IMG/VR virus record: IMGVR_UViG_3300047310_000028
Location: 1-48,961 of that record
Direction: 5' to 3' (one strand)
DNA from: a virus
DNA: 48,961 bases
This document shows positions 34,701-44,511 of this stretch, in pieces. The position numbers were made by a program, and so were the translations under genes. Below the pieces are notes generated by a model that did no database searches, was not told the DNA's origin, and saw only the letters and a list, made by a program, of their open reading frames with translations. Numbering within the stretch: the first letter of the stretch is position 1; every line of letters starts with the position of its first letter.

Positions 34701-34853
34701 GGAGGAGGTATCCACAATCATTTCCATATCAAAGGTCTTGTGAGTCCTGATAGCCTGACCAAGGTTATGGAACAGATGAACCGGAAGGTGCAACGAGGCC
34801 AAGGCAATCTTGTGGCTAGCAATGCACTCAGGGTGACGAAGAGGTCTTCATGA
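31761..34853 (+). CDS. tape measure protein
   Basis: 1030 residues. Mostly helical and charged with long coiled-coil regions (about 80-160, 390-560) and a hydrophobic stretch LLLLSVLSEGINKL near residue 195. The C-terminal region is Gly/Ser-rich with SFAGGGLITKRTMAVMGDA, the GGLI...P motif common at the end of tape measures. Length predicts a tail of roughly 150 nm if the common 0.15 nm per residue holds. Overlaps the chaperone gene by 11 bases. It fixes tail length and is ejected with DNA. Confidence 0.92.
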   Translation: MPINVGDGVLTFLGDATSLEGMLDTLPAKVSAKMKPAEDAARGVGTELDNAGKKGAEAGEKISNAWIKVARATQDNQIAQKELKVALESAKKAGSDDSVAMAELAAAQEKAAAAARNLTVATKEARTAGESEVVDMRQRREAAAAYGELTGNTIPRGLRTWLAEMKLVGPAMEAAFSVLAPLLLLSVLSEGINKLIEWHEASEKLREEWTASDTQFRTTSNSIRDEINQQEEDFIRLTQGPIAAYEFALKHIKSTFDETVGKIGGELDQQGDKFINRGGFFSSLFGGEEKANAKSAGKDLKEFSALLQEVGKKAQDLHPENPFAGMDAMLDRINGKIKETTTAIQDEQEEIRQAKARDAGGVPSALLGFDASSLERMRAVLQEAQQLLQQSRDREKAARDADTARIKSDEIAHQKDIDGAKLTVHQAFLLATLSVNEENQRIAFERGKESLNQFLQQQKTNEVEKYNIEKKGYEDQLALANKDKVRNEQEIITINGHLEDLRIQHHLRMLQIDQAAYVKQADQVVKALENVVASTKDGSEDRINAEQAVLDFLEITYGRESDAFLAQQNRVTAAIQSHVEVRKTLALKEVHYNEALIADKESAEVAYYSFLRSSAQVSAVTLLKIQQDASEKAYQSKRAALLYELNQLGPQEVVARQKLNADITMIDQKHEEEKRLMYAQTVNIIELEYQQLGIKSTMMYMRERDLAKQSYEAIARSGTASYGQLLAAQIKVFQAQIALNAAEGKNTAKDQAALDKLIATYHKWELAIKGVNSQGKIQESILKGLGVDARLMGSTISNVALGATAALQQMFQAWASGGVTVAQACAQITAAILQSVAQYAFVKAIEQMALGFAAMSPTSPDFGHAGEHFTSAGLWFLVGAGASVAGGLVSRASSGGGSTAPGSTGSSTSLASPGQNQTTPPPVQSVNVQSFAGGGLITKRTMAVMGDAANGGDAAEAALPLDDPKAMQAVGDAIAPHISGGGGIHNHFHIKGLVSPDSLTKVMEQMNRKVQRGQGNLVASNALRVTKRSS

Positions 34854-35695
34854 TCACGCCGCAGTTTACCTTTGATGAACGTCTCATTGCTGGTTCTGAC
34901 TTCACCAATGCTGCATGGGCCAAAACAAATATTACGATCACGCCAGCGTTTGCTGTTGCCCCTGACGGAACTAACACCGCTCAGAAGGTAGCAGCAACCG
35001 CAACGGCGGTGGCCCTTATGAATCAGACTTGCCTTGCTGCTGGGAAGGCTTCCGGGAAACCCTATTCCATTTATGTTAAGATTGGAACTGGTGCAGCAGT
35101 AGCCAATGCGTTCATTCTTCGGAACGGAACCACAGCAACCAATATTCAATCGTGCACAGTTAACTTTACCACTGGCGCCGTCCTTACAGGGAATGCAACG
35201 ATGGTCTCTGTCGGCAACGGGTGGTGGAAGCTGACTCTCACTCCGACTGCCGGCCAAGTATCGGATGGAGATGACCTCCTGTGCTATGTTGGCTTTGTTG
35301 GAGGAGCACAGACTGCTGGAGACTTCCTGTTGGCTTGGGGAGGTTCTTTGCGCTCCTCGTTGCTTCCTACTTATCCAGCAGTCCAGAGGCCGTTGGCTCA
35401 GGAGATGGAAGCTACACGTCAGGATTCGATTACATCGAGCGGCATTAAGCAGTCTATAACGGAGAGGACAGATTTTTTCTTCACATTGAGCTTTCCGTTT
35501 GTTCCTGCTGCTGATATTGCAACGTGGAAAACTTTCATGACGTGGGCTTTGCCGGGAGGATTCTTCACCTACTACCCGGATTCAACTGACCCAACTACCC
35601 ATACCGATTACACAATGGAGGAGACGCTCTGGGCCCCAAAGCGGGCAATCTTTGGGCACGCTGCGTTTCAATTCCGTATGAGACAGGTGGTGTAA
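34850..35695 (+). CDS. minor tail protein with carbohydrate-binding-like domain
   Basis: 281 residues beginning four bases before the tape measure stop (ATGA). The N-terminal 165 residues (FTNAAWAKTNITITPAF, APDGTNTAQKVAATAT, WWKLTLTPTAGQVSDGDDL) look like a jelly-roll sugar-binding module. The C-terminal segment QSITERTDFFFTLSFPFVPA and FFTYYPDSTDPTTHTDYTME is like distal-tail/baseplate proteins. A tail-tip protein with cell-surface binding is a sensible call. Confidence 0.65.
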   Translation: MITPQFTFDERLIAGSDFTNAAWAKTNITITPAFAVAPDGTNTAQKVAATATAVALMNQTCLAAGKASGKPYSIYVKIGTGAAVANAFILRNGTTATNIQSCTVNFTTGAVLTGNATMVSVGNGWWKLTLTPTAGQVSDGDDLLCYVGFVGGAQTAGDFLLAWGGSLRSSLLPTYPAVQRPLAQEMEATRQDSITSSGIKQSITERTDFFFTLSFPFVPAADIATWKTFMTWALPGGFFTYYPDSTDPTTHTDYTMEETLWAPKRAIFGHAAFQFRMRQVV

Positions 35696-37073: not shown

Positions 37074-39848
37074 ATGTCTCCTTTAACTCTCGCAACAATA
37101 CCTGGCTTTAGTGATTTGTCGAATACTCCGTTGGCCGCAAACAAGTTCTCCCTCGGAGCCCATCTCAGCGCAATCAACTTCAATGCTTCGTTCGGAATTG
37201 TGCGCTTGGAAATCTTTACTGACATTTACAAGCATGGCGATGTTGTTCCGTTGCCGAAGTCTCCAGTGGATGGGTACACATACCGTCAGGATGAACTGAT
37301 GTATATGTGGGTGCCGCAGAATACCGCCAATCAACTCACAGGTTGGGCCACCTACCGGGAACCTTGGACGATGTGGTACGGCATCTGGAATGTCAACCAG
37401 CTTACCGGCCTTGTGAGCAGCGAGATTGGATACAGGGGCAATAACGATCACAAAGACAATCAAGCCACAACGAACGATGGCGTGGTGCAGGTCTTCGTAA
37501 TAGCACAACGGCAGAAGGCTAGCATGATCATGGCGGCCTCTCCTTCGTTCGTTCGGCATCTCGATGCAGACTTCTTTACCAACAAGGCTCTTAATACAAG
37601 TCTATTGACGGAGATGAATGGCAACGCCAAGTTTGCTATTGTCAACACAGAGATAATCTATTGCGGAGAGTTTTTCAATGGACAGACAGTTCCTCTTGCC
37701 AACATCGTCTCCCCGGTAGATGGGCACGCCTATGCCTATGCTGATTGCATGTTTCAAACCTCTTGGCGATGGACAGCGGATACAGACGGAAGTGGCAATC
37801 CTATCAAGCCGGCAATTAACAAAGGCCAGCTTCAAGATTGGTCTGCTTCCGTTACGACCTCCGGCGCAGTAAAGATCGCAAACACTTCGGTATCTTACGA
37901 GCTGAGCGGCACTCATACCGGCACAACAGGCAAGGTTGCCGTCTTCGCCTTCTGCAATCGCGCACTGGGCACAACCTTCCCTAGCTCCGTCAACTTATTC
38001 TCTGAGGTTGTCGATAGCGCGTTTGCTCCCGGTTCAACCCTCCGCGCCACGACCCTTCAACAGGTTAACCGGAATATCAATCAGGCCATCTGTACGCCTG
38101 AGTTCTTCGGGCCAACCAATTACTCGAATGGCAATACAATCCCTGTCCCCACCAGCCCTTTGGACGGTTATGTCTATGCCCGAACGGAGTTGTTCTATAT
38201 ATGGGATTGGAACAATACAGGCCCAAGTGCAGTAAGCTCCGGGAGACTATCCCTTGTCCACGGGAGTATCAGCGCAGCAGGGGTGGTGACGATTAATGAT
38301 TATCGACTGAACTCAGGAGCCTCTTCTGTAGCTTTGGCAAACGAAGGCTCGATGAGGGTTGTGGTGGTTGGATTCCGTAGCAGAACCTTGGCCAGCCCTC
38401 CTGTCTCGACCCCTGGGCCTCCAACGTTTGGCATCGATGATGTGATTGAGTTCTATGGCCCCAATGATCGGCAGACACAATACTTGAGCAAGGGAGATGG
38501 AAGCGTCACAGTAAGCTCTTTGCTGAATAGTCAGGGTTCTGTTCTTCCAAACCAAGTCATTGCTCTGACATTCACCATGACTAGTTCATCTGTGCTTATC
38601 TGTACCTTTGCTGACCAGTCTTTGTTGAGGCCTGATAATACAAACCTCAACCTTCTGGGGTCAAACACAGCTGCCAACTTGTCGGTGAATGGAGATTTTG
38701 AATCGGCAGGCACTCTTGGTGCGCAAGCGGCTAACTGGTCTCTGATTGGTGGTAATGCCCTTGTTAAGGACAATAGCGCAATCGTCAATGGATCATTCAA
38801 CGGAAAAATAAACAATGCCGGAGGAGCTACATCTCAGAACTTTAGTGCAGCAGCAATTGCTTTAACTGCGGGGCAGGTATATGTGTTAGAGGCATTCATC
38901 AAAGTTGGAACAGCAATGCCAAATATCCCTGCACACGCGGGAGCTTGTATTGATCTTGTTATTGCTACCGGCATCACTAGCTTTACCATTATCACAAAGT
39001 TTGGAGCATTTGAGGGAGGTTCTACTACAACCCCAAGATGCGGATGGCCGGCAGATGGAGCAGCTCACGGATACGGATTTTTTCAGTGCTACTTCATTCC
39101 TACTGCTAACGGCACAGTCAATATAAATACCATTATGCAATCTAATGGTGGGGATTCGGAATGGGACAACATCAGACTCTATCCCTTCCGTGGGAAAACT
39201 TATACTGGCCTAAGCGCATCAACTCATTACTATCTCTATCCTTACATTGAGGTGGCCACTGGGTTGCTTAAGTTCAGGAATGGTGCCCCTCCCGGCTCGA
39301 CTCCTAGTGATTCTCTAGCTGCTCAATGCTTATTGGATGGAGGAGTTCAGGTTGCGCCAAAGAATATCTTGACGCCTACTGCGGGAGGCTCCTCATCCGA
39401 TACTGGTGGTGGATCTGGTACGTGTCCCGAATGGGAAGAGCCAGTCTATATCCGGCGATATTCTAGCGATGGGATATTGACGTTTGAAGGTGAGATTGAG
39501 GCTGGAGATGTTAAGGTTGGGTTTGAATCTGATGATGGCCTTATCCTAAGAGGTGATCTAATCAAGGGATGGTCGTTTGCCAAACAAGCTTACGTCTGGC
39601 GTGCCGTTCAAAAGGTCATCATCGTTCCTTGCTCAGCTTGGTCTTCTGTTAGAGGCCGTTTGTTAACTCCTTGTGAGGCAGTCTGGTGGGAGGATAGATG
39701 GATGGCTGCGTGGAAGACTCCCGGAGCAGGGCACGTCAAGAAGATCAGCTTCAAGGTGCTGATTGAAGTTGAAGCCGATTGGGATGATGAGCATAATTAC
39801 CTCGTTGGTGATCTTATCATCCACAACATGATCGTTCTACCCTGCTAA
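37074..39848 (+). CDS. large tail protein: three repeats, binding domain, C-terminal Hint domain
   Basis: 924 residues. Three related modules (about 41-145, 188-300, 340-445) share NG..xP.P.SP.DGY.Y...EL.Y.W (PKSPVDGYTYRQDELMYMW; IVSPVDGHAYAY; PTSPLDGYVYARTELFYIW). A later Thr/Gly-rich region (about 530-700) with FESAGTLGAQAANWSLIGG is like a carbohydrate-binding domain. The last 141 residues look like a Hint/intein-type domain: Cys784 in GTCPEWEEPV, TPCEAVWW in the middle, and DEHNYLVGDLIIHN six residues before the end. Probably a receptor-binding tail protein that can process itself. Confidence 0.75.
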   Translation: MSPLTLATIPGFSDLSNTPLAANKFSLGAHLSAINFNASFGIVRLEIFTDIYKHGDVVPLPKSPVDGYTYRQDELMYMWVPQNTANQLTGWATYREPWTMWYGIWNVNQLTGLVSSEIGYRGNNDHKDNQATTNDGVVQVFVIAQRQKASMIMAASPSFVRHLDADFFTNKALNTSLLTEMNGNAKFAIVNTEIIYCGEFFNGQTVPLANIVSPVDGHAYAYADCMFQTSWRWTADTDGSGNPIKPAINKGQLQDWSASVTTSGAVKIANTSVSYELSGTHTGTTGKVAVFAFCNRALGTTFPSSVNLFSEVVDSAFAPGSTLRATTLQQVNRNINQAICTPEFFGPTNYSNGNTIPVPTSPLDGYVYARTELFYIWDWNNTGPSAVSSGRLSLVHGSISAAGVVTINDYRLNSGASSVALANEGSMRVVVVGFRSRTLASPPVSTPGPPTFGIDDVIEFYGPNDRQTQYLSKGDGSVTVSSLLNSQGSVLPNQVIALTFTMTSSSVLICTFADQSLLRPDNTNLNLLGSNTAANLSVNGDFESAGTLGAQAANWSLIGGNALVKDNSAIVNGSFNGKINNAGGATSQNFSAAAIALTAGQVYVLEAFIKVGTAMPNIPAHAGACIDLVIATGITSFTIITKFGAFEGGSTTTPRCGWPADGAAHGYGFFQCYFIPTANGTVNINTIMQSNGGDSEWDNIRLYPFRGKTYTGLSASTHYYLYPYIEVATGLLKFRNGAPPGSTPSDSLAAQCLLDGGVQVAPKNILTPTAGGSSSDTGGGSGTCPEWEEPVYIRRYSSDGILTFEGEIEAGDVKVGFESDDGLILRGDLIKGWSFAKQAYVWRAVQKVIIVPCSAWSSVRGRLLTPCEAVWWEDRWMAAWKTPGAGHVKKISFKVLIEVEADWDDEHNYLVGDLIIHNMIVLPC

Positions 39849-39857
39849 GGAGGGATT

Positions 39858-40205
39858 GTGCAGCACATCTGGGTAATGAGTAAATCCTATCAAGCTCTTG
39901 GCGGAGAGATTCTGCCTGTTGCTTGGAATTACGGCCTCAACCATTCTGCTATGGGATATAAACCAAATGGTTGGGGTCTTGTTTGGGTATCGGTCGAGAA
40001 CCAGCATCTTGAGTTTATGAAATCTGGTACAGACTCGGATGTTGAAGTTGTAGGGCAGGAAGACGACCCGCCAACACAACTGGTTCTTGATACTTATGCT
40101 GATGAACTCGGCACTGCCTCATACGATACTCTGAGGAAGGTGCTTAAGAAACTTGCAGAGAGAGAGCCACGATTCATGATGGATCGTGATCCAAGGAGAC
40201 CATGA
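39858..40205 (+). CDS. hypothetical protein before lysis genes, 115 aa
   Basis: 115 residues, GTG start with AGGAGG upstream. First half hydrophobic/aromatic (VMSKSYQALGGEILPVAWNY, GWGLVWVSVEN), second half acidic then basic. Not recognised. Its place after the tail protein and before lysozyme suggests a small tail chaperone or accessory. Overlaps the lysozyme start. Confidence 0.5.
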   Translation: MQHIWVMSKSYQALGGEILPVAWNYGLNHSAMGYKPNGWGLVWVSVENQHLEFMKSGTDSDVEVVGQEDDPPTQLVLDTYADELGTASYDTLRKVLKKLAEREPRFMMDRDPRRP

Positions 40206-42585: not shown

Positions 42586-42758
42586 GATTCCCTCCCGGTG
42601 AGTAATTCGTTATGGATTGAATAGATCGTGTTGGTGTAACTTTGGTTTCCGTGAGTCTCTTGGATAAGGCGATTGAAGATTTTGAGTGCTGCCTTCCGTC
42701 CAATCTCCTCATCCAAGATTTTGACAACTTGCATCCTTGTCTCTTTACTAGCCGGCAT
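42582..42758 (-). CDS. small hypothetical protein, 58 aa
   Basis: 58 residues, ATG with GAGGAGGAAGAGG upstream, starting 11 bases inside the end of the helicase and ending at a TGA that overlaps the next start. Sequence starts MPASKETRMQVVKILDEEIG and is helical, ending RESX. It resembles a small transcription or helicase accessory, but no family is recognised. The tight overlaps on both sides support real coding. Confidence 0.6.
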   Translation of the reverse strand: MPASKETRMQVVKILDEEIGRKAALKIFNRLIQETHGNQSYTNTIYSIHNELLTGRES

Positions 42759-44511
42759 CCTCTTCCTCCTCTAGGAATAAACTGCGCGGGTCTTGATTTA
42801 TTTGATCGGCCAACTCTTTGTTGGAGCGGAGAGCATTGATGATCTTTCGATCAGGGCTGGCCGTGCACTTTGCTTCTAGGTCGATGTACAGAACCTTCTC
42901 TGTTGTACCGTAACGGTAATTGCGCTTCTCGCTCTGGAGTCTATCGTCCAAGCTGGACGCCTGACTGTGATAGACTGTTCGGCTGGCTGCGGTAAGGGTG
43001 AAAACTCTAGCTGCCGCTCGACTGGCAACGAAGTATCGGATGCGGTCATCGTCCTGTATCCGCTTAATGGCCGCAATGCGATCATCCTCGCTGATGCCTC
43101 CGTAATAGGAGACTGCTTGGGCTCCTAGCTTCTTGGACAGCTCTAGGAGGCAAGGCTTGAACCGCGCAAAGATCAAGACCTTTCTCCCGCCAACTGAAGA
43201 CTCCTCGACCTCCTCCAAGGTTGCCGTCATCCTAGGGTCAGGCTCTCCGAAGTCCAGTTTGGTGGCATTCTCTGTTGGGGTAAGGCCGCACACGATCTGA
43301 TGCATGCGAAGACCTCTCACAAGGCTTATCTCTTGTGCCCGCTTCAATCCCTCCTCCTCTCCCATCAAGGCAGTAATCTCTTCGAGCGATTGCTTGCGGA
43401 AGGCTTCATACAGCCTCTGTTGCTTCGGAGCGAGAACAAATGGCCTCCGCTTCCACATCTGTCCCGGAAGGTCGAAACAGTCCTTGGCTAGGACTCGATG
43501 CGAGTGCCCATCGATGATCTTAATCAGACGGTCGATGTTCTTGTATCCAACAATCTGCCTTCCCTCGAATCCTCCCATGATACAGTACTCGGCACGGAAA
43601 GCAGTAAAAGAAGTGTGGCCCAATATGCGCGGGTCGAGAAAGTAATATTGACTGTAAAGGTTTTCGATGCCGGTGGTAAGCTGCGTGCCAGTCATAATCC
43701 TTCGGTAAGGAGCAAGCTCACGATGCTTGTTGAGGAACTTTGTACGGTCAGCGGAATGATTCTTGATGGTTGTGGATTCGTCTATCACAAACAAGCACCG
43801 CTTCCCTCGAAGCCACGTCAGCAGAAGGGTCTGGAGCTTTCCGAACTCTCCGCTAGGCAGAAAGCGTACACCCTCGATATGGAGAGTGAGAATGTTGAGG
43901 ACTCCGGGAGACGGAGCGGTTGCGGCCTCCATCATATTCTTAATCTCGGCATCGCGCCAATTGATCGAGAAGTATGTAGAGTGATATTGGATTCTGGCCG
44001 GCATGTGCTTGGGTATCTCCTCGATGACCCAATTGATGTGGCCTCCGATAGGAGCCAGCACAATCAGCGCGTCTATCTTCCCTTGCTCGAAGAGATAGGC
44101 TGCCGTGTCGATGATCGGCTTTGTCTTCCCGGTTCCCTGCTCGTGGAGGAGCGCAAACACTTCCCTATCCCGGCTGAGGAGGAAGCATTGGAGCTGATGG
44201 TTGAAAGGCTCCGTCTCAAACACGTAACCGGAAGAGTCCGTGAGAGTCTCCTTCTTGGCTTCCCGCGTGTTTGTCTCCTCCATCCTTAGATCGAGATAGG
44301 CGTCACGGAGCTTCCCGGCCTCCGGCCTCCAATCGGCCTCCGGGAAGGTGTCGAGGATGTATTGAATATTTGCACCGGAGGGTTGGAAGATCATGTGACG
44401 TTCCACCCACTTCTTTCTTCCCGGCATCGCATTGAGTAAAGAGAAAACTGCCCCAACACGGAAGTCCGTGATGAGGCAGTCTTTACCAGCTTGAGTTAGC
44501 TGAATGATCAA
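42748..44511 (-). CDS. SNF2-like SF2 helicase
   Basis: 587 residues. Motif I is EQGTGKTKP (about 119), motif Ia ALIVLAPIGGHINWVIEE, motif II FVIDESTTIKN, motif III IMTGTQ, and in the C-terminal half VLIFARFKPCL, SYYGG and LTAASRTVYHSQ correspond to motifs IV-VI of SNF2/RapA-like ATPases. Phages often encode such proteins to move proteins on DNA or to aid recombination. Start ATG lies after the lipoprotein gene with a short gap. Confidence 0.9.
   Translation of the reverse strand: MIIQLTQAGKDCLITDFRVGAVFSLLNAMPGRKKWVERHMIFQPSGANIQYILDTFPEADWRPEAGKLRDAYLDLRMEETNTREAKKETLTDSSGYVFETEPFNHQLQCFLLSRDREVFALLHEQGTGKTKPIIDTAAYLFEQGKIDALIVLAPIGGHINWVIEEIPKHMPARIQYHSTYFSINWRDAEIKNMMEAATAPSPGVLNILTLHIEGVRFLPSGEFGKLQTLLLTWLRGKRCLFVIDESTTIKNHSADRTKFLNKHRELAPYRRIMTGTQLTTGIENLYSQYYFLDPRILGHTSFTAFRAEYCIMGGFEGRQIVGYKNIDRLIKIIDGHSHRVLAKDCFDLPGQMWKRRPFVLAPKQQRLYEAFRKQSLEEITALMGEEEGLKRAQEISLVRGLRMHQIVCGLTPTENATKLDFGEPDPRMTATLEEVEESSVGGRKVLIFARFKPCLLELSKKLGAQAVSYYGGISEDDRIAAIKRIQDDDRIRYFVASRAAARVFTLTAASRTVYHSQASSLDDRLQSEKRNYRYGTTEKVLYIDLEAKCTASPDRKIINALRSNKELADQINQDPRSLFLEEEEDAG

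Follow-up and report, generated by a model that had tools for sequence, protein, structure and literature searches.

A probable Hint domain with glutamate in place of the block B histidine at the C-terminus of a putative phage tail-tip protein

The C-terminal part of a 924-aa protein encoded by an uncultured virus infecting bacteria is very probably a divergent Hint (hedgehog/intein) domain (residues 784–918; 39423..39827, plus strand, as are all features given below unless stated otherwise). The DNA analyzed, referred to here as the window, is the complete 48,961-bp record of this virus. We favor, with a probability of roughly 0.6, the reading that a non-splicing, BIL-like Hint domain, which together with a carbohydrate-binding-like module is attached to the C-terminal end of a siphovirus tail-tip protein in a small phage lineage, serves as a removable module. 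The Hint fold, the order of the motifs, the tail context, the conservation, the modular gain or loss and the co-occurrence with a 115-aa gene were obtained by computation; that the Hint domain may cleave we infer from its sequence.

The genome is of the siphovirus type. Matches to PHROG families were found for terminase, portal, minor head protein, head protease, major head protein, neck, tail terminator and major tail protein, and the genes are ordered terminase, portal, head, neck, tail terminator, major tail protein, tape measure and distal tail genes. The major tail gene is followed by a long open reading frame in the tape-measure position, which has no family match, then by a gene that weakly matches a tail protein (34850–35695), a 456-aa gene, the 924-aa gene (37074..39848, ATG to TAA), the 115-aa gene and a lysozyme gene. 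The 924-aa protein itself matches no family; it is assigned to the tail because of the gene order, its gene being the fourth of the tail module when counted from the tape-measure position. The tail location claimed in the earlier note agrees with this order, and we regard the product as probably a receptor-binding tail-tip protein.

Residues 1–460 of the protein (37074..38453) form a conserved N-terminal core of three repeats of about 150 aa, which is kept in relatives without the Hint domain; across the relatives the mutual identity of the repeats is roughly 23–31%. Residues 530–720 (38661..39233) are a putative carbohydrate-binding-like module, since the homologue in contig L006 matches Pfam CBM_4_9 with an E-value of 2e-4, which is under the curated cut-off, and the copy in the window is 72% identical. 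A Gly/Ser-rich linker (residues 770–783, AGGSSSDTGGGSGT; 39381..39422) with Thr at position −1 leads into the Hint domain, where the GC content shows no break.

The domain begins with Cys784 (39423..39425) in the context SGTCPEWEEPV, the nucleophile at position 1, which is invariant in the family and in all 43 comparison phage Hint domains (see below). The protein ends with DWDDEHNYLVGDLIIHN-MIVLPC (the end is also given as DEHNYLVGDLIIHN-MIVLPC), that is, with His917-Asn918 (39822..39827), the putative C-terminal cleavage dyad, followed by exactly six residues (39828..39845) and the stop codon. The earlier note, which had proposed an intein-like domain here, placed the starting Cys784, the terminal dyad and the six-residue tail exactly. 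Protein and domain searches found the domain in four further contigs, namely L001 with an identical protein, L002, L006 and the truncated L003. In relatives which are 56–64% identical over the Hint region Cys1, Thr865, the block F His907 (39792..39794), His917, Asn918 and the terminal LPC are invariant; Thr783 at −1 is invariant in the family, and the tail has the consensus [MT][IF][VI]LPC. With a pN/pS of 0.26–0.36, at synonymous sites near saturation, the Hint region is under purifying selection.

None of the curated Pfam and NCBIfam profiles matched the domain above cut-off; the nearest was TIGR01443 (intein_Cterm) with an E-value of 0.069 in the L006 homologue, under the cut-off. A HMMER search with a phage Hint profile scored the window at noise, and phmmer against PDB sequences gave chance matches only. 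For the profile–profile comparison with hhalign we used 50 phage Hint-like domains gathered by a C-terminal DNA pattern (a few with doubtful starts were dropped for the 43-member comparison set). The family scored 26.7 globally and 29.7 locally against these domains; in 200 column shuffles the maxima were 12.0 (global) and 20.8 (local). Tiles of the remaining protein stayed at background except the tile containing the domain start. The N-terminal half of the domain with the linker gave a separate match to the phage Hint profile. The blocks Cys1, DG, AGDVKVG, TPxx, W, HNY and HN occur in the same order as in the phage Hint domains, and EAGDVKVG aligns onto their consensus AGDLxVG.

An AlphaFold2 model calculated from a 30-row alignment reached a pLDDT of 89.4 and a pTM of 0.82. 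The top 42 PDB matches of this model in Foldseek are all Hint structures (BIL2, Clostridium thermocellum BIL, inteins and Vint), and VIA-align gave Z-scores of 14.7 for the DnaX mini-intein and BIL2, 14.4 for hedgehog (1at0) and 14.1 for the BIL domain 2lwy, spanning domain residues 1–137 with an rmsd of 1.6–1.8. This comparison with Hint folds, which the earlier note had called for, thus turned out in favor of its identification, as did the motif order and the profile–profile comparison. The model is not independent of the Hint hypothesis because 27 of the alignment rows were phage Hint domains; from the four family sequences alone the prediction was unusable (pLDDT 45). It counts in favor of the model that it places a strand (19–26) and a turn (27–29) at the AGDVKVG position even though the input alignment had the phage block elsewhere.

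The chemistry of the domain is less straightforward. Block B (T865-P-C-E868; 39666..39677) carries Glu instead of the usual His of the TxxH motif in the three family members checked (window, L002 and L006, the only full-length distinct members known), whereas His is present in 43/43 comparison domains. The earlier note, which had suggested self-cleavage at Cys784, overlooked this exchange. Because of it, cleavage at Cys784 is in doubt: it may be slowed or altered, or have been lost. No residue of inteins is more conserved than the block B His, and many inteins depend on it, yet a few natural inteins are without it (PMC6333167). Glu868 therefore does not exclude membership in the Hint superfamily. 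Inteins without this His can splice via compensation, and a bulkier residue at −1 can substitute (PMC6333167, PMC7664689); the −1 residue of the window protein is Thr783. Since the residues for C-terminal Asn cyclisation are intact, cleavage after Asn918 would be the best-preserved and better-supported reaction, while a cut ahead of Cys784 is an uncertain possibility. On catalysis the earlier note, which also thought that the tail protein might be released or cross-linked during assembly or upon host contact, is supported in part.

A splicing intein was considered and rejected. Class 1 inteins have Cys, Ser or Thr at +1; splicing is not expected in the window because the residue there is Met919 (Thr in L002, L003 and L006), and only six residues follow the domain. 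There is also no interrupted host protein that needs both exteins, since eight relatives have the core without the domain.

We envisage the following course of events. After folding, Asn918 would cyclise with the assistance of His917 and His907, and the last six residues would be cut off. Cys784 together with Thr865 could form a thioester at Thr783-Cys784, presumably slowly or with a different catalysis because Glu868 replaces the block B His, and through hydrolysis or capture of this thioester the tail protein would lose the 15-kDa domain. The Hint domain would then be a removable C-terminal module, possibly with the 115-aa product as a helper. It speaks against this explanation that loss of the hexapeptide alone has no obvious use. 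Possibly, although we consider this rather unlikely, the Hint fold is kept merely as a structural or binding domain, a compact beta module which stays on the tail tip with no N-terminal cleavage and perhaps with none at all. The uniform Glu at block B would fit such a role, and the protein could work with a C-terminal domain still attached. A structural role alone, however, would require neither Cys1 and Thr865 nor the block F His, the penultimate His and the terminal Asn, all of which are invariant at 56–64% identity, and the natural inteins which still splice without the block B His also argue against it.

The BIL domains of C. thermocellum (2lwy) and Tetrahymena (BIL2, 6y75) share the fold (Z 14.1 and 14.7), Cys1 and the terminal HN with the window domain. 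Like BILs the window domain lacks a nucleophile at +1, which is not the case for the relatives with Thr; BILs of this kind yield mainly cleaved products (PMC7664689). The window domain differs from them by the Glu at block B and in that it closes a phage tail protein, with six residues left behind it, and its cleavage is putative. With class 1 inteins (Ssp DnaB, 1mi8; gp41-1, 6qaz) it has the fold, Cys1, the block F His and the terminal HN in common, but it has Met at +1 and a tiny C-extein, does not interrupt a conserved host protein and lacks the block B His. A C-terminal domain which removes itself from a tail protein has been described in the Peptidase S74 intramolecular chaperone of tail fibers and spikes (PMC7824862). 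Here the proposed role is shared, but fold and catalysis differ, so the analogy is one of use only; Pfam searches for the S74 profile gave no match at E-values up to 1 or 10, and the best matches of the fold search are Hint domains. If C-terminal Hint domains of phage tail proteins do cleave, they would represent a second, unrelated solution beside S74 for removable tail C-termini, and the Glu that occurs naturally at block B would probe to what extent the chemistry can do without its most conserved His.

Similar arrangements were found among the comparison domains. The sample consists of the matches listed for one DNA pattern, and its proportions are therefore not estimates for all phages: among these matches 14 of the 43 domains end 15 or fewer residues before the end of the open frame (two of the 14 are cut by the contig end), and 24 have Lys at +1 and four a nucleophile. 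Ten proteins with short tails, again among the matches listed, were scanned, and four match tail families: L058 and L061 are tail fiber/J proteins (PHROG 5616/31), L057 and L063 belong to tail protein PHROG 2048, and all carry the Hint domain at the C-terminus with tails of 1–14 residues. As in the window, +1 is mostly non-nucleophilic (K, V or I), and several have a Gly-rich linker before Cys1. Unlike the window domain they keep the block B His and have neither the additional residues that follow block A nor the DWDD insertion, and no gene related to the 115-aa one turned up in their neighborhoods. Hint domains at the C-terminus of tail proteins thus recur in metagenomic phages, and the window domain, having this position and a short tail, is a divergent example. 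What distinguishes its family is the Glu at block B, additional residues both behind block A and ahead of HNY, the conserved LPC end and the neighboring 115-aa gene. Searched against 50,697 phage records, the L061 domain gave one match, in an unannotated human-gut contig, and the L017 domain gave none. Our literature search turned up no description of Hint domains at the C-terminus of phage tail proteins; those phage papers that were found dealt with inteins in terminase or ribonucleotide reductase.

The lineage carrying the domain appears to be small. Searching the 50,697 phage records by tblastn with the protein, the domain or the 115-aa product gave no match, neither the domain nor the 456-aa neighbor had a relative in bacterial genomes, and a DNA pattern for D-E-H-N-[YF]-x-x-G-x4-H-N retrieved no contigs beyond those already known. 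More distant phages were reached via the 456-aa neighbor. The eight relatives mentioned above (L134–L136, L138–L142) have an N-terminal core 35–68% identical to that of the window protein and different ends, and both the domain and the 115-aa gene are missing from them. The Hint domain is therefore a module that was gained or lost.

The 115-aa gene (39858..40205) directly follows the tail gene in the same frame, as is also the case in L002, L003 and L006. A separate scan for this gene found it only in contigs with the Hint domain; its product has no Pfam, PHROG or phage match. The co-occurrence comes from one lineage, and shared ancestry alone could explain it. Between 39846 and 39860 the stop codon TAA of the tail gene is followed by the Shine-Dalgarno-like GGAGGG (39849..39854) and then by GTG, with which the 115-aa gene starts. 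Readthrough of the stop codon, which would fuse the domain to the 115-aa frame, is not favored because of this Shine-Dalgarno-like sequence and because the stop codon varies (TAA or TGA); for the same reasons, that the frame is shared probably reflects inherited spacing. Recoding of stop codons was rejected, as the genes of the window use all three. We consider it improbable, but worth stating, that the domain is a Glu-for-His Hint enzyme for which the 115-aa product acts as a gate or as a conjugation partner, so that the tail-tip protein would be cut or ligated only with its partner; if so, tail maturation or host attachment would include a controlled self-processing step.

Inteins, hedgehog proteins and secreted bacterial proteins are known to contain Hint domains. 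The C-terminal autoprocessing domain of hedgehog (1at0) resembles the window domain in fold (Z 14.4) and in its C-terminal place on a larger protein; hedgehog keeps TxxH, and a sterol-recognition region then follows, whereas in the window HN is followed by six residues and the stop, leaving no sterol- or adduct-recognition region. By analogy with hedgehog, which is joined to cholesterol and is among the close structural matches, the thioester at Cys784 might be captured by the 115-aa product, by a different subunit of the tail or by a surface molecule, and the tail protein would thereby be cross-linked. The invariant Cys1 and −1 Thr and the lineage-specific gene directly behind the domain in every carrier contig, and found nowhere else, would be in line with such a ligation, but with just six residues after the domain, no acceptor residue or complex known and thioester formation made less likely by the loss of the block B His, we think it very unlikely. 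That the domain is not Hint at all but an unrelated beta domain with a chance likeness at its ends and a model forced by the Hint rows would agree with the HMMER scores at noise and the poor model of the family alone, but is scarcely credible in view of the shuffle and within-protein controls of hhalign, the correctly ordered internal motifs AGDVKVG, TPxx, W and HNY and the confident model with a Z-score of 14.7.

Some further observations concern the surroundings of the tail genes. The 456-aa neighbor is 604 aa long in L002 (1835–3649) and in L010, where about 150 aa resembling a beta module of the carbohydrate-binding type are inserted. In L139 (9366–13439) the tail protein core is split into two open reading frames (291 and 284 aa) that are separated by three other genes. 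Behind the lysis region of the window a gene on the minus strand (42748–44511), with counterparts in L003 and L009, encodes SNF2-type helicase domains. In related phages without the Hint domain a fused galactosyltransferase-like and family 2 glycosyltransferase is encoded just behind the tail genes (L135, 12377–13831; L138, 13539–14978; L140, 12760–14337; L142, 12947–14731), with matches above the Pfam cut-offs in L135 and L138 and below them in L140 and L142.
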